A DNA stretch of 64,000 nucleotides from Anthopleura xanthogrammica (lineage: Eukaryota > Cnidaria > Anthozoa > Actiniaria > Actiniidae), in NCBI GenBank assembly GCA_964019055.1, contig OZ025216.1, positions 9,063,414 to 9,127,413 on the forward strand, written 5' to 3'. A program made the position numbers and the translations under genes. Position 1 is the first letter of the stretch, and every line of letters begins with the position of its first letter. Below the pieces are notes generated by a model. That model was not told the origin of the DNA, did not search any database, and saw nothing but the letters and a program-made list of their open reading frames with translations. This document shows positions 1,371 to 63,579 of this stretch, one piece after another.

Positions 1371-14795
<13,425 letters not shown>

Positions 14796-18622: not shown

Positions 18623-18739
18623 ATGGTAATTTTGCATCTTTTCATTGCTGTGCTTTTGTTCTTTGTTGGTGAAGTTCAGTCATCGCATTACAGAGGAGGT
18701 ACAATTTCCTACAGCCCAAACCCAAGCTCGCCGTACTCG
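18623..18739 (+). CDS. gene 2 exon 1: signal peptide and YRGGTISY start
   Basis: ATG at 18623 opens a hydrophobic leader ([13 protein letters not shown]) followed by [13 protein letters not shown]. 117 bp, ends phase 0. This start is chosen because it is the first ATG giving a compact signal peptide. Confidence 0.88.
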
Positions 18740-21700
18740 GTAATGTCAAAATTCTGTCTACTAGATTAACAAAGTTACTGCTTGGTTTTAAGCAAGTGAC
18801 GGCTCACGAAACATGACAGTTACTAAAAAATTCTATGTTGATTTTTTTGCCAGGTTGACTTCACATTCAGGCTCTCATTCCGTCGAGGTGCTGTCTTTTG
18901 TGACAGTAGTAGTGTCGCGAGCAGAAGCCTTGCATCCACGTCGTTTTCCAATAGATGGCAAGTAACAAGATATTACGGGTCATATTATTCCAGTTCTTCT
19001 AGTGGAAGTGCAAACATTTATTGCAGTGACTTTAACGTCGAAGAAGACTGGAGCGAAGGAAACAATACATTTACATATGTGGGGAGCTATAGCGATAACT
19101 GGTGGAATGTAAGGTATGTCAAATAGTAAAAATTTGTTTAAAAATGAATTTTAATTAAAAGCACCATTTTACAAGGTCAGACGGAGAAAACAGCTAGAAA
19201 ACTAATACAAGAATTAAGCGAGAGGTTCGTTTGGTTGTTATGCTTTGCCTGTTTTAGTTTCATTGTCTGCACTTTCTGTATAACTGCCGCCTACAGCAGA
19301 GACCACTGAACCAGTTAAAGTGCATATCACCCCTGATACAATACGTTCAGTACTGATTCTACATGAAGTAGATAGTTGAATAGCAAAATATTTCTTGATT
19401 TGAGTGATGCGTCTTTAAGTTATAAAGGTTTATATTTGCAATATGTTAATGACTGTGACGTCAGGCAAGGCTTCATTAAATATACAAAACTTTGATTGGC
19501 TGATAGCCGTGTTTACATGAGGCTATGTAAACACGGCAAGTTTCAATATGTTATAAAACATATAGAAAACGTTTTCCCGTGTTTACATAGCCTGATATAA
19601 ACACTCGGGAAAGTTTGGGAGAAGTCTTCAGCTCTGTGTAAACCTCGTCTGCGGCTCGGTTTTACACAACAGCTCTCGACTTCTCCCAAACTTCCCTCGT
19701 GTTTATATTTGTCATTTTTGGGATCAGCGTTGAATTTTATATAACATTACTTTCTAAAAAAAGTTTTCTAATTACTTTCGGCTTTAGTATTCAGTCACCT
19801 TAAATATTGGAAGTGATAAAAACATTCCATGGAAAGTTAGAAATACTTGTTGTTGTTCTCTAAAACGTTATTTCTTCATTTGTTTGCCTCTTTTATTAAG
19901 AATAACTGACAATGGAAATTGGATTCATGGAATCACATATTCCAATCCTTCGAATAACATGCATCTGGACGCAAGAGTCAACAGAACCGTCGGCGGTGCC
20001 TTCAATAACTCTTCACCAGTTACCAATCTTCCACTAACGGTCTACGTAGTTCAAGGTATCCCATCAGTCATTAAAATTCCTGTCGAAGATCCTGATGGTG
20101 ACATAGTGCGTTGTCGTAATGCAAGCTACCAGGAGTGTTACAGAGGAATGTGTACTTACTTTCCTCATGGAGTAATAGACGAGGTAAGCTACCGGCAGGA
20201 ATGTTACAGAGGAATGTGTACTTACTTTTCTCATGGAGTACTAGACGAGGTAAGCTACCGGTAGGAATGTTACAGAGGAATGTGTACTTACTTTCCTCAT
20301 GGAGTACTAGACGAGGTAAGCTACCTGCAGAAATGCTACAGAGGAATGTGTACTTACATCTTCATGGAGTACTAGATGAGGTAAGCTACCGGCAGGAATC
20401 TTACAGAGGAATGTGTACTTACTTTCTTCATGGAGTACTAGATGAGGTAAGCTACCGGCAGAAATGTTACAGAGGAATGTGTACTTACATCTTCATGGAG
20501 TACTAGAAGAGGTAAGCTACCTGCAGAAATGCTACAGAGGAATGTGTACTTACATCTTCATGGAGTACTAGATGAGGTAAGCTACCGGCAGAAATGTTAC
20601 AGAGGAATGTGTACTTACTTTCTTCATGGAGTACTAGATGAGGTAAGCTACCTGCAGAAATGTTACAGAGGAATGTGTACTTACTTTCTTCATGGAGTAC
20701 TAGATGAGGTAAGTTACCGGCAGGAATGTTACAGAGGAATGTGTACTTACTTTTCTCATGGGGTAATAGACGAGGTAAGTTACCTGCAGAAATGTTACAG
20801 AGGAATGTATACTTACTTTCCTCATGGAGTACTAGACGAGGTAAGCTAACCGCAGGAATTTTACAGAGGAATGAGTACTAACTTTCTTCATGGAGTACTA
20901 GACGAGGTAAGCTACCTGCAGGAATGCTACAGAGAAATGACTTATAAGTTACTTTCTTTGTGATCATTTTCAGGGAACTTGTAGTCTCAGTTATAATGGC
21001 GCTGGTTCGGTAGGGCAACTCTTCCCAATCATCTTGAAGCTTGAAGATTTTCCTTCAGGGACGACGCAGTTCGATTCGTCTAACAGTTTGGGCTCAGTGG
21101 ATCTGCAGTTTGTAGTACACATTGCTAATATGACAGGTAAGGGCAGATCAAGACCATGAATCGTAATTAATTTATATCTAGTTTAGCAACCAGTCACTAG
21201 CATATCAAGATATCGATCAATGACGGACCGATTCCTTTTGCATGGACTAGCGGTACGAAAGCTATCATGGTGTTACAAATAGCGTAAATCTATCACGAGC
21301 AAAAACCATTGCCCTTTTTGATAATTGGAAAATATAAACAAACGAACAAACAAACAAACAAACAAACAAACGAACGAACGAACAAACGAGTGAATGAATG
21401 AATGAATGAATGAATGAACGAATGGATAAGAATTAAGAGTAGATTCCATACTTATTTTATTAGAGTGCAGTAACTACACCGTGTTGAACGCACGTGACCG
21501 TTCTCAAGAAGTACACAGAGGTAACTTATTAATGTGCGATCAGTACACCCTCACACCAGGATGGTACCGCTTCATGGGTGATGCTGGTACTGCTATGCCA
21601 ACGTCTTGTGTACCTATGAATCATTGTGGTACTCATGCTTCTGGATGGATGCAAGGTTCACATCCCACCCAAGCAGAGGGTATCGTGACTCGTAGGGTGT

Positions 21701-23994
21701 GCTATCACTGGAGTAGTAACTGCTGTAACTGGAACAACAATATTCGTGTCAAAAACTGTGGAGGATTCTACGTGTACGAGCTTGTCAAACCATCATACTG
21801 TCACCTCCGTTACTGTGGCAACGGGACAGGTAAGTGTGGTTTTATTTTGTGCTTAATGTCTCTAGTTATAAGAAATTTAAGACTACTGAAACCTATCTAC
21901 TGATAAATGTGATATTCGATGCAAATATTTGTTACCAATATATATATTCAAATTGTATATGTGCGCTAACGCAAAGTACTCTTTATTCTAATGCTGTTGG
22001 GCTTTTCTTGTTCAGGTACGAACAACACATGCGCAAGCAGTCCTTGTCGTAATAATGGCACGTGTGCTAATACTTACTCTGGCTACAGGTGCTATTGTCC
22101 ATATGGTTACAACGGGACACAATGTGAAACAAGTTAGTTGTACTAGAATATATGCATGAATGTATATATAAAGTATGTGTTACCCAGACAAACATTGGTA
22201 TACTAACCGGTAGGGGAAAGGGATTGGAAATGAGCTCCATTTGAGACCCTTCGCATCCCCTAAACAAGAAAAATATATTTAAGACTCTCTTTCTCCAATG
22301 TTTACAGTCCCCTATCTCCTACTAGCCAACCAGTTTCGCTTATATATGTCGCCTTTCTCATTCATTAAACATTGGATGTTGGATGACATAATAGTTGGCT
22401 ATTTAACAATTAGTCCTCGAGTCCGAATGGTCTACGAGTCAATAGCCCATGAGGCCGAAGGCCGAAGGCCGAATGGGCTATTGACCCCTAGGCCATGAGG
22501 GCGAGAGGTCTAATTGTTTTAGTAAAAACCTACTAATCGGTCCAATAAAAGGATGCAAAAAGTTTTGGATTTTGCTTTAAATATATATTTTTTTGGTTTT
22601 CAAAACCGGCGCTTTTCGCTACTAGAGGTCTATCACTAATAGACCCCTAGTAGCTCAGCCAATCACAGGGCTCGATTGGTGATAGACCATTAGTAGGTTT
22701 TTTCTAATACTTTATAGTCCAGCAATTTGATGCAAAAGAATGCTCGAATTATGCACTTTTGGGTAAAGGCACAAAACTTGGCACGATGATAGCATAGGAC
22801 AACCTGATTGATTTCGGCTATGGGCCCACCTCGATTTCATTCAGGGGGAGGCAAAGTTGGTACTTAGGGGGGAGGGGAAGGGCAACATTTTTTACAAATT
22901 TTTAAACTTTATTATATCTTATCAAAGCACTAAACTTACCAGATATTCAGTGTTTAAGGTGGCTGCCTACTAAAGAAACGTGAAGCTACTGCGCACGCTA
23001 CTACGAAATCACAATGACGCTATAAAGCAGGCAATCTGACGCCACTATGTGCGCGCGCACGAATAACCTTCAAACTTTTATCGAAGAACCATATACGTTT
23101 TGAACTTCCATAGGGCAAAACCCTTTTTTTTGCACTCGTTTTAGACAAAATTGTCAAGGGCAAGACGAATAAAAAAATAAAAAGTTGACTATATTTCTCA
23201 ATATTTTCCAATTTTTTTGACTGATATTTGTAACACGATGTATAATTTAGTTTTCCTGAAAAAATAACGTCAAAAGCTTGATTACCGGTGAAGTTATGAA
23301 TTTTTTTCGTAGAGAGTTGGTTTTCGCTTCCTTTTCTTCATAAAGTTGTTGATATGCTTATGTTTAATCGTGAATATCTCGAAAACGGCCTCGGGACACC
23401 CCTTTCTTCTTTCCAGATTTGAAATCAGCATTAAATTTATGTTTAAAAAACTTTTTCATGATTTTTTTTAATAGTTGGCAGCCTCCTTAAACTATATGAG
23501 CGTTTTTTAAAAAATTTATTTCTCGTAAGTTTAGTGCTAATTTGATGATATATAAGAAAATTTAAGAAATTGCAACAATTTTTGCCCTCCCCTCCCCCTG
23601 AGTACATATTTTGCCTCCCCCTGAATTGAAATCGATAGTTAAAATCAATTGGCTTGCCTTATGCTATCATATCGTGCCAAGTTTGGTGCTTCTAACCAAA
23701 AATGTACAATTCGAGCACAATATTGCTGCACTATTACGCCTTTTCTTTCTCTATTATTATCCTTATTATCCTCCCCGCGTCAGTGGTAACTGAATCGAAC
23801 AGTTGCTCCCAGTGGTACTACACTTGTGAGAACTATGTAGTGTTTTTTTTCTGTACTTACTTGGATAACTTGGGGATATAGTTTTTTCATACAGTAGGAA
23901 ATGTTTTCCCTCGTTAACCGCCGCCCGGTTGGCTCAGTGGCTCAGTTGGTTGAGCACCGGACTTTCGTGCAGGAGGTCGTGGTTCGAGTCCCGG

Positions 23995-44000: not shown

Positions 44001-47000
44001 TCTGGATATATTTTTTGGAATCGAATAAACGCTTAATGCTGTTCTTTGCTTAGGAAATTATTGTAATCTTAGGGTTTGAATACGATTTCGTCAACAAATT
44101 TATCTTTAGAAATAATTTTACATCAAAGTTTTCGGGTCTCAGGAAAACGATGTTTGACAATACATACATACATACATAGTTTATTCAAATCGCAAATAAA
44201 TTGTTGACAACTAATAAAATTAAGAGCAAATACAAGCAAAAGGCGATACAAATCGGACAATAAAGCTAAATAATAGGCGACTTGAAAGGAAGTTATGAGG
44301 TTAACCCTATGTAAAAACTCCCCCCAAAAAACGGCAAAACAAGACAAGAAATACATTGAAAAAGAAAAAATCCCTAAGCAGCGTAATTAGCGAAAAATTC
44401 GTTATAAAATGGGAATATAAATATATTAATATTTGACAGAAATGACAGAAATCTTAACATCGTTAATAGTCAGGTCTGTTAGCGAAAAGATTGTTCACTT
44501 TTGAGAGCAATCACCAAACTTGGCACAGATGTTCGTTGGGTTTGAGTTTGGTGCTTGTAATCGAAAGCGCACGAACTTCGCTATTTTTCTCGCTTAGGCC
44601 CGGTTTTAACGTCGAATTTCACATGTGCCGAATCTAATACAAATGAAGTCAATCAAAAGATTTTGTTCATTTGCATTAGATTCAGCACATGTGAACTTCA
44701 ACATCTAGACCGGGCCTAACAGACCTGATTATAAACAAAGCCAAATTTTCTTCTTCCTCGATCCGCCATTTGGAATCCAGGGCAAAGTAAACGAAGCCGA
44801 CAAGCATAAGCTGCGCGCTGATTGGTTGAAAGTCAATTTCTATTGTTTTTCCTAAGTCATGTTTAGATTGGCTGAGAGAAACTTACTGAGTAGTTGGACG
44901 AAAACGATCCAAATTGATCTTAAATATTCTATAATTTCTTTTTCTAATTCCTTAAATTGATTTTTTATCATTTTTATGGATCACGAGCTCGGCTTCTTTC
45001 GATGGAAAGGATTGTCACACAATTCGAGGCATTAAATTGGGTGGCTATATGCTATATCTTGGCTGAAAATTTTAAAACTTAGAACCTTTAATGAAATTAT
45101 TACTGCTAAAAAGTGACAACATTGTATTCTAAATCGCTTAAAAAAGTAAGAACGTTATTAGCAAGCGAATGAGATGCAAATGAGACAATAAGCATTGTAT
45201 CGACCCGATAGCCTCACTTGTATGATTCTTAAAACAAAAGAATATATCATTTGCATGCATCCGTAATGACAGCTATTGGAAACTTGATGAATCAAAAATT
45301 GAAAACAAGGCTGAATTTGTCTGCGCAATTTTGACACGGGAAACTTTCACACATACACTTCTCCCTAAACTCCATATGAGTGAGAAGATAGTCAGTCATT
45401 GGTGTCGTAAAGTTAGGAATCCGGCGAAAATATATATTAATCCCAAAAGCTAGAAACAAATAGGCCTAGGTCAACTGGAATGGTGTTTTTTTTTAAGAGA
45501 AAATTATTTTGAATCTAGATATGTACCCGTGTAACAGTGGTAACCCTTGTCGTAATGGAGGTAGTTGTTACGGAGGTTATAACTGGTACAGATGTTCCTG
45601 TCGTAGTGGATACACTGGACAACAATGTCAGACTTGTAAGTAACAGTCATACAATTAAAGTATCGTATTTTATGCCACAGTTGGTCTCTAAAATCATTAA
45701 ATGTCGATTTTTCTAAAATGGTGTGACAAATCCTATTCATTCCTTAATCTAGACGTGTACCCGTGTAACAGTGGTAACCCTTGTCGTAACGGAGGTACTT
45801 GTCGTGGTGGCCATGGTTGGTACAGATGTTCCTGCCCTTATGGATACACTGGACAACAATGCCAGACTTGTAAGTAACACAGTAATAGAAATTATCATAT
45901 GACCGTATTTCACTGTACGCGTGATTCTAAAAAAAACCTTTGGGGAAAATGTCGTCAGCAAAAAAAGTACGCTTTTCCGAAAAGTGTAATAACTTCCCGT
46001 TCGGACTCGCCGTTCGGACTCGCTGCCGTCAATCATGTAAAAACTACGCATTTTGATTCGCATTTATTAAAAACGCTTTGAAATCGATTTTTTATATGTG
46101 GTCATATGATAAAATGCTTATTGACTGAGTTAGGGTCGGTCCGAACGGGAAAATATTTGGCTCTCGGTCCTTGGCACGGAACTCGCTGCGCTCGTTCCGT
46201 ACTTCAGGACCTCGAGCCAAATATTTTCCCGTTCGGACCTCCCACTCAGTCAATAAGTACATATTATTAAATTGTTATATTACAATAGAATATCGTATTT
46301 TACGGCATAGTTGATCTCTAAACTTATTAAATGTCGTTTTTCTAAAATGAGAAATCCCATTTATTTTGAATCTAGACATGCCGTGTCACAGTAACCCTTG
46401 TCGTAACGGAGCTACTTGTAACAATGGTTATTCGGGCAGATATTACTGTTCCTGTCGTAGTGGATACACTGGCAGTCAGTGTCAGTCTTGTAAGTAACAG
46501 TCAAACAACAGAATATTGTATTTTACGCCACGGTTGATCTCTAAAAGTCATTAAACCAGTTTAACAGGAATACTGTTTCTCTAACATGAGAAATCCCGTT
46601 CTTTTTTTAATGTAGACGTTTACCCGTGTAACAGTAGCCCTTGTCGTAACGGAGGTACTTGTCTCGGTGGTCCTGGCTGGTACAACTGTTCCTGTCTAAG
46701 TGGATACACTGGAAAACAATGTCAGACTTGTAAGTAGAAGCCAACAATCAGGGTCCGGTTGTACGAAGCCTGGATAAAGTTATCCACCGGGTAAGAGTTA
46801 TCCAGTGTAAAGAATGTGTATAGGCGTTATCCGCTGGATAATAATTTATCCGGTGAATAGCGCTACTCAGCCTACATACAACCGGCTCCAGAGCATTATA
46901 TTGTTTCCCGAAGCTCCAAAACATTAGACCAGTTTAACGGGAATTCCAATATTCTGATATGAGAAATCCAATTTATTTTTAATCTAGACGTGTACCCGTG

Positions 47001-50000
47001 TAACATTGGTAACCCTTGTCGTAACGGAGGTACTTGTCAGGGTGGTCATGGTTGGTACAGATGTGACTGTCGTAGTGGATACACTGGACAACAATGTCAG
47101 ACTTGTAAGTAGAAGCCAACAATCAGTGTCCGGTTGTACGAAGTCTGGATAAAGTTATCCACCGGGTAAGAGTTATCCAGTGTAAAGAATGTGTATAGGT
47201 GTTATCCGCTGGATAAGGATTTATCCGGTGGATAGCGCTACTCAGCCTACGTACAACCGGCTCCAGAGCATTTTATTTTTTCCCGGAGCTCCAAAACATT
47301 AGACCAGTTTAACGGGAATTCCAATATTCTGATATGAGAAATCCAATTTATTTTTAATCTAGACGTGTACCCGTGTAACATTGGTAACCCTTGTCGTAAC
47401 GGAGGTACTTGTCAGGGTGGTCATGGTTGGTACAGATGTGACTGTCCTAGTGGATACACTGGACAACAATGTCAGTCTTGTAAGTAACAGTCATACAATC
47501 AGAGTATTGTATTTTATGCCACAGTTGGTCTCTAAAATCATTAAATGTCGTTTTTTTCTAATGCGACAAACCCAATTCATTTTGAATCTAGATATTTACT
47601 CGCCTATTTACACTCCGAAAACTTTTGCTTGTACCTTGTATTTCCGCGGTATTTATCATGTACACATTACTCTGAAAACATACATTGTTTTTTGGCTATG
47701 TTTATCAATTTATTTTTATATGATGTTAATTTACAGCTGCAAATGCCTCGTGCTCTTGTCTTAATGGAGGAACGTGCAGATACACTTGGTATTCTGGATA
47801 TCGTTGTGACTGTCCTAACGGCTACACTGGTAGAGCATGCGAAACAAGTATACTAAGTAAGAAGAGCTAATTATTGATAAACAAAGTTAGGCAACAAAAA
47901 CACAACATACCAATCTGTTCAGTTCTATGATCACCATCAAGTACACCATCACTTCTCACTCCCAGTAGCAACACTCCCACCATCGCTACCATTATGACAA
48001 CACTAACTGACTTTCACACCCACCCATACTACCACAAGACCTCCATAACTCAAACCACCACCACCGCCACTATCATCCGTATCACCACTAACAACAACAA
48101 CCGACCTGAAAACTAGCCACAACAAATAAACTTACGGACACACGGTGTAACATTGTGTGCAATGTTGCAGGCAATCGATGTTGCGAGCCATGTCACACAA
48201 CGCAATTTGCTGCACGCAATGCTGCTGAAGTAGAAAACGATCCTACTTCAACAACATTGCCTGCAATATTGCGCGCAATGTTACACCGTGTGTCTGCGCC
48301 TTAATCGAACACCACCTATTTCCATTTCAGATCTTAACACAAATGTAACTTGTGGTGAGAGTTACATGCAGATTGACTTGGAGGACTCGTACTTCTCTGA
48401 CATTGATTGGCGTAATATGCACCTGAAGGACCCATCATGTAGGGCAACAAAAACAGCCGATACAAGGAGACTACGAGCACCTCTAAACCGATGTGGTACG
48501 ACGTACACAGAAAACAAGAAAACGATCACATTCTGGAACGAGGTATCTTCAGCAAAAAAAATTAAACTGAGTTAAAGAATCCTAGTCAACTACAATTGCG
48601 CAATTCCGTGCCGTGACCGTGCCCGGTGTAACTTTTTACAGTTATGCGAAATAAACGTATTCTTACCACTAACAGTATGAATTATTGTTAGAGAATGAAC
48701 ACCCTTATACTGTAAGTACATTGTATGTTCCAATGACAGGTGAAAACCGACAACCGCTACAAACCAATAGGGAATGGCCCGGCAATCTCACGTGACAGAC
48801 ACCTTCTTCTGCGGTTCTTTTGTGCGTATGAACGAAGCCGTTTTGTCAGCACGTCCTTCTCACCATCAAAGAAGAAAGTGGTTGCATCTGAAGGTATATA
48901 AATTGGGTGTAAATTCTTGTTTTGCGCAAAACAATTGTCCCTGTTTCGTGTCGATGATAGCTCTTAATAGCTCTGAGTTTAGCAAACCCTTGGACCTCGT
49001 TTTAAGTTCGGATTGGAAGTATTAAATTTCCAAGGGGGAGGGGTAGAACCCGGAGAACCCAGAGAAAATCCACCGTGAGGAATATTATGAAAAAGGAATG
49101 AGCAATTGATCCCACGACCATAGCAGTTAGAGGTGGCGCATTAACCCCCCGTCCCTCAACCGTATTAAGCGGCAGCCCGCGAAGAATGTCCCGGTCGTCA
49201 ATAAGTAGAATTGTTATATACCAACTGTCAAAGTCCATTTTTCTCGTACTCTTATTGGGCGAGAGGGCATCACGTGAACGAGAACAAGTTTCGATGTTTC
49301 CCCGGCAACGGCTCTCTGCGGGCAATAATATGTTATCTACCGAAAAAAAAAAAAAAACTGGAAGTGATTTCACCGGAAACGTAAGATCTTTTCTAAGCCG
49401 TTCTTAAAGTCACATAATTAAAACAAAAACAATTTTGTTGGGTTCTTTGACAAAGCACTGAAACCTACCTCGGGAAAGCAGTGTGTTTTGTGGTCCCTCG
49501 ATTGCGATGAAACACACTGTTTCCCTCCGTCCCAGCCAATAAGTGTTAAGTGACTGTTAAATTTAGATTCCTCATAAGATGCGTGAAAAATTATTGGAAC
49601 ATTACATGGAGATCGTAGAACACAAAGTGGCCGCTTAATATACGTTTAATACCTGGCTGGAAAAGAAATGAAGAGGTTCAGGAGAATAATACTTAAATTA
49701 TGCGTTTATCGATTTGTAATGATTAATGATCATGAAAACCGACTGAAGCTTTGTTACGATGCAGTATACTGAGTTATTAATCTCTTTCTCAAGGATCGTA
49801 TGGCAACTTCACTTTCACCATGGATCTCTACCAGTATTCTAACTATTCAACACCCTACTCCCCTTTTGCTTACCCAGTGGCTGTCTACCCAAACCAGCCT
49901 CTGTGGGTTCAGTATGAAGTCAAGAATACCAACGCTGATCTGGTCGTGTTTGCTGAGAATTGTCGTGCTACGCCTTCTAGTGATCCCAATGCGACTCCAC

Positions 50001-53263: not shown

Positions 53264-63579
<10,316 letters not shown>

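Follow-up and report, generated by a model that had tools for sequence, protein, structure and literature searches.

A probable mirage-type minisatellite repeats the 5' splice site of one intron in at least nine sea anemone genes

Results

The stretch of Anthopleura xanthogrammica DNA analysed here (the window, 64,000 nucleotides, whose first letter is position 1 of all plain coordinates below) carries three genes, numbered 1 to 3, which share the feature that we describe. Gene 2 was modelled by hand (Table 1). Its fifth exon scores 89.4 bits against the D8C_UMOD family PF23283, with a cut-off of 27, which places the product among UMOD-like D8C proteins. On an unscored reading, this exon is followed by what look like three EGF-like exons and, further on, by exons resembling a ZP domain and a membrane anchor; at least one exon is missing from the model between 25614 and 28571, and the frames beyond contain stops and are unsettled.

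The third exon of gene 2 ends within a tandem repeat. Tandem Repeats Finder reported a repeat at 20130-20939 with a period of 66, 12.3 copies and 91% matches, and its core, TGTTACAGAGGAATGTGTACTTAC, occurred 21 times in the window at up to 3 mismatches and not once in 100 shuffles. As the 65/66-bp unit straddles the exon 3 donor, the repeat is tandem, minisatellite-like and placed across an exon/intron boundary. All 12 donors read GAG/GTAAGY (10 GTAAGC, 2 GTAAGT) with one acceptor downstream, and the intron length ranges by donor from 790 nt (donor 1) down to 67 nt (donor 12). A sequence-only reading had described this array as a 12-fold exon-end unit with a decayed 13th copy merging into the acceptor, every full unit keeping a GTAAGY donor, and this description holds for positions 20121-20973. 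Its estimate of some 54 exonic bases per unit was too short, the homology extending back 63 bases to GCAAGC. Our frame check agrees with it on two further points, namely that use of donor 2 lengthens the product by exactly 22 codons without shifting the frame, and that products of donors 3 and later are stopped by a TAG at 20262. Another tandem repeat found by the same program in the window (46549-47502, period 375, 2.5 copies) has a consensus that seems to include an EGF-like exon with an intron, and seems to reflect duplication of a whole exon with its intron, not a boundary repeat.

Table 1. Features of the array-bearing genes in the window
Feature	Position	Strand	Description	Basis
Gene 2 exon 1	18623..18739	+	signal-peptide-like start and 10-residue motif	hand-built model, consensus splice sites, open frame; domains by eye
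Gene 2 exon 2	18854..19113	+		hand-built model
Gene 2 exon 3	19901..20183	+	ends in the repeated unit; same exon in eight further genes	model
Gene 2 exon 4	20974..21136	+	phase 0 junction	genome search and hand-built model
Gene 2 exon 5	21464..21829	+	D8C_UMOD domain (PF23283)	domain search, E 1.8e-25
Gene 2 exonic unit 1	20121..20183	+	63 bp, GCAAGC...GACGAG, coding copy of the unit	unit parsing/alignment
Gene 2 full downstream units	20184..20906	+	11 units of 65/66 bp, each opened by a donor	Tandem Repeats Finder and unit parsing
Gene 2 donors 1-6	20184, 20250, 20316, 20381, 20447, 20512	+		unit parsing
Gene 2 donors 7-12	20577, 20643, 20709, 20775, 20841, 20907	+		unit parsing
Gene 2 terminal decayed unit	20907..20973	+	67 bp; donor 12, exon-like sequence, then TGATCATTTTCAG acceptor	
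Gene 2 in-frame TAG	20262..20264	+	closes products of donors 3 to 12	
Gene 1 array	1591..1849	+	exonic unit, 2 full downstream units, terminal unit; 3 donors	Tandem Repeats Finder and parsing
Gene 3 array	56098..56466	+	one exonic and five downstream units; first two donors intact, positions 3-5 decayed	
Gene 3 insertion between array and acceptor	56467..57408 (approximate ends)	+	about 56776-57395 is part of a dispersed repeat	

The array is a property of a gene group. We searched the whole genome (289.8 Mb in 125 contigs) with the unit DNA, exon 3 and exon 4, the resulting counts being lower bounds. All three queries alike recovered at least nine loci, seven on contig C11 (including the three in the window) and two on contig C14, and in 9/9 genes found with the exon 3/exon 4 pair the array occupied the identical junction. 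Lettering these genes A to I, with genes 1, 2 and 3 as D1, E2 and F3, the donor positions number 6 in A, 14 in B, 9 in C, 3 in D1, 12 in E2, 5 in F3, 10 in G, 4 in H and 2 in I. Of the total of 65, 60 are GTAAG; the exceptions are three in F3 (GAAGC, TTAAG, TTAAG) and a GTTAG in each of C and H. GAYGAGGTAAGYTAM had 55 hits across the genome, 49 of them inside the nine loci and 6 occurring singly elsewhere. On C11 the full downstream units range from 63 to 70 bp, with 65-66 bp the usual length, and they measure 63 bp in H and 65 bp in I; the exonic unit is 63 bp in every gene and starts with GCAA in eight and ACAA in H. In 8/9 genes the repeats fill nearly the whole intron. The dispersed repeat inserted in gene 3 had 929 candidates in the genome, of which 40 were scored, the gene 3 copy among them; the array of the same gene is the one that has lost three of its five donors.

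Tandem repeats are prone to misassembly, and exact copy number at each locus could be wrong. However, the presence of the array at nine separate loci makes an artefact limited to one of them unlikely, and with distinct unit variants in most loci, arrays shorter than about 1 kb and a genome in 125 contigs, we regard collapse or expansion during assembly as an exceedingly improbable source of the arrays.

Copy number is unstable between paralogs of this one genome, with 2 to 14 donor positions across the nine. A case in point is that of B and D1, whose downstream flanks agree at 99.9% of 1500 bp and upstream flanks at 96.5% of 1503 aligned bp, and which nevertheless have 14 and 3 donors. Part of the difference between arrays comes in blocks of three units (about 198 bp): unit identity at lag 3 in the four longest arrays (B, C, E2, G) was reached by 0 of 2000 shuffles of unit order, although lag 3 was picked after inspection and lag 2 is slightly higher in B. 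As a gauge of concerted evolution within arrays, we asked which unit each of the 56 full downstream units most resembles: for 28, about half, the single best match lay in the same gene, 8 were ties and 20 were nearer to another gene, the single full unit of I having no own-gene partner in this count. Some unit types may therefore predate the gene copies. The first and last units retain features of their own in the unit alignment.

Exonic and intronic units have also parted company. In H and I the exonic unit has diverged: of the 4 full intronic units of these two genes, every one resembles the seven C11 exonic units without exception (79-89% identity) more closely than the exon of its own gene (75-78%). 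The intronic units thus preserve an earlier form of the exon. The exonic unit of gene G (locus L051) carries CTACACGAG, a variant also present in several of its own intronic units, and this sharing suggests exchange between coding exon and intron array.

Whether the array created the intron or was received by it can be judged from a more distant family. Five genes on contig C18 (L057 and L059-L062, within about 255 kb) have the same exon 3/exon 4 split, the junction being flanked by ...ILDE at the end of exon 3 and by R(N/K)C at the start of exon 4. In 5/5 the intron sits at the same position and phase as in the array genes, measuring 301, 308, 431, 435 and 474 nt, and at none of these five loci was an exon-end match found in the intron, or a tandem repeat by Tandem Repeats Finder. 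The intron is thus old and the array derived. The opposite order, in which a tandemly duplicated exon segment gave rise to the intron, with GCAAGC changed to a GTAAGC donor and GACGAG to a CAG acceptor, was the idea that we favoured once the units had been aligned and the match to exon 4 seen. Alignment of the terminal unit with exon 4 is in frame and collinear in several genes (for example C11:9843390-9843593 against query 37-105, 84%, with one stop), which speaks for such a birth; the relatives without the duplication, however, all have the intron at exactly this site, and we dropped the idea on their account as very improbable. A match on contig C13 in the search that gave this C11 example was chance-like (E 4.45), and aligning exon 3 with exon 4 yielded nothing useful.

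The sequence-only reading had offered three explanations for the array, the first being that it tunes protein length. Alternative donors would then add one or more 22-residue CYRGMC loops, and the donor-2 product is indeed open in 5/9 genes (A, C, E2, F3, G), products of donors up to 7 in C and up to 8 in G being open when frames are traced over the initial 150 nt of exon 4. In the other four it is closed, at once in B, D1 and H, and in I after 19 codons, near the end of unit 2. A maintained extension would be expected to stay open and to show coding constraint. Counting distinct changes of gene, position and base, the 56 full downstream units contain 76 nonsynonymous, 22 synonymous and 12 stop events, where 77.9, 25.8 and 6.2 are expected, and C and G together contain 17, 7 and 1, where 17.7, 5.9 and 1.4 are expected. 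There is no sign of protein-level constraint on the downstream units, C and G included, and on these counts a protein-length function was set aside. Six of the 12 stop events are a TAC-to-TAA change, counted once per gene. This change, at column 9 in the third codon after the donor (GTAAGCTAAC/T), is present in 12 units from 6/9 genes (A, B, C, D1, E2, H; for instance at 20841-20852), and it yields both a stop and, as CTAAC, a branch-point-like motif; its recurrence across genes may reflect common descent or parallel change.

Searching protein databases with the stretch encoded by exons 3-4 returned 98 candidates, among which P0003 was the sole match at E ≤ 0.001. This uncharacterized protein of Actinia tenebrosa (family Actiniidae) is 79% identical over 83% of the stretch, and across the junction (19 residues) it has the donor-1 form, without the extra loop; as a single database protein, it is an indirect hint of donor choice. 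When the repeated loop served as query, P0003 was again the one protein matched at E up to 1, and it lacks the repeat. As P0003 is without the loop and no loop-carrying protein was found, donor 1 is probably the productive site. The device for varying protein length is therefore unsupported as a maintained function and, in our estimation, quite unlikely, although leaky use of donor 2 may give 22 additional residues in the five open genes.

The second explanation was that of a decoy array limiting productive splicing. Donor 1 was left out of our final test of donor constraint because constraint is expected at the presumed productive site. GTAAG is intact in 51/56 of the remaining positions and is the best-kept 5-mer in the 42 scored columns, the next being AATGT at 48/56. 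It required 4 parsimony steps against 9.3 expected (binomial p 0.037, column permutation p 0.069), with little change when the last donor was also omitted (p 0.035, permutation 0.058). Earlier tests that included donor 1 gave p 0.018 with a permutation value of 0.033, and p 0.034 with terminal units. When gene 3 was excluded in addition to donor 1, post hoc, 2 steps remained against 8.2 expected (p 0.008, permutation 0.03). Taken together, these values are a weak hint of donor constraint beyond neutrality.

Decoy donors of this kind would compete for U1 and for the acceptor, setting the share of transcripts that is unproductive, with copy number tuning the output of each paralog. The downstream donors do stand in nearly the exonic context of donor 1, mostly with the same GAG/GTAAG core, and both the rank of GTAAG and the post hoc test fall on this side, as does the excess of stop events, with the caveat that the TAC-to-TAA half of it may be shared by descent. 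Against this, the near-identical B and D1 have 14 and 3 donors, gene 3 has lost three of its five, the statistics are weak with AATGT close behind, and boundary repeats in amphioxus are reported, as far as those accounts describe it, without disturbance of splicing (PMC3087553, PMC3902484). We consider dosage control by decoys unlikely. Recursive splicing through the GACGAG/GTAAG junctions was put aside on inspection by eye, which showed two further AGs separating the junction from the pyrimidine-rich stretch.

Discussion

The arrays are probably best described as a mirage-type minisatellite at an exon/intron boundary. As the sequences stand, the array is most likely unstable, mostly neutral and tolerated by splicing, which is close to the third of the earlier explanations, a neutral expansion kept alive by splicing constraint. 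This fits best of the three: copy number differs greatly between near-identical genes, the codons of the downstream units show no sign of constraint, and GTAAG is, by a narrow margin, the best-kept 5-mer.

In the nine genes, an intron whose position and phase predate the group holds tandem copies of the final 63-66 bases of its upstream exon together with the 5' splice site. For its origin we propose the following course of events. The founding duplication may have run between the exonic GCAAGC and the donor GTAAGC through short homology, and a later deletion may have fused the old acceptor tail, TATGATCATTTTCAG, to a unit cut short, with loss of the old intron interior; this is the simplest reconstruction of the two steps and of their order. 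Productive mRNA would be made from donor 1, with donors 2 and later mostly silent, or giving rise to minor extended mRNAs or truncated ones prone to decay. The copies would persist through their youth and through regeneration by unequal exchange, not through any need for additional protein loops. A selected splicing rheostat, in which near-equal downstream donors are preserved to divert part of the transcripts into unproductive forms and rapid change in copy number sets the output of each paralog independently, strikes us as an unlikely account of the same arrays.

The closest counterparts that we encountered are the mirages of amphioxus. In Adh3 and the globins BflGb6 and BflGb9, minisatellite-like duplications extend over an exon/intron boundary, are unstable in length and include many units with AG/GT, and the Adh3 data and globin RT-PCR, as presented, suggest that regular splicing is undisturbed (PMC3087553). 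The resemblance lies in a boundary-spanning minisatellite with many units that keep their splice signal and an unstable copy number, within an otherwise ordinary gene. On the structural tests and on instability between paralogs, the present array joins the mirage minisatellites. It differs from those described for amphioxus in being cnidarian, in lying at a donor boundary, in being shared by nine paralogs, in reaching as many as 14 donor positions, and in making up nearly the whole intron in eight of the nine. Regular splicing in amphioxus was inferred from RT-PCR; our array was analysed in genomic DNA. Tandem repeats overlapping splice sites are also described for lancelet PGBD5, where accurate splicing is suggested to be kept and mirages in Adh and troponin C are cited (PMC3902484); as far as described, that case concerns one gene with few copies.

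Other systems share parts of this picture. Human paralogs within segmental duplications contain internal tandem repeats at exon-intron boundaries, and there, as here, repeat number varies among recent paralogs; the human repeats are reported to be able to form new introns with transcript support, whereas the present intron predates its repeat (PMC2812944). In a further system an exon segment with a donor-like site is tandemly duplicated, as in our array (PMC3443670); in ours no new intron position was created. Proteins of Nematostella are reported to contain many tandem repeats (PMC2805694), and a term search of the accessible text of that report for introns or splicing found no mention of either. 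Our literature search on tandem donor arrays and competing donors returned nothing closer than the amphioxus and human cases, and no work recognisable by its description as concerning this locus.

What sets this array apart from known mirages is how many donors it has, that nine paralogs carry it, and that its host is only distantly related to lancelets. Mirage minisatellites, described in lancelets in the works cited here, would thereby extend to a cnidarian genome. The nine genes also constitute natural tests of donor competition, each setting from 2 to 14 near-identical donors, in near-identical exonic context, against one acceptor. They could reveal how the spliceosome chooses among equal donors, and whether position alone decides.
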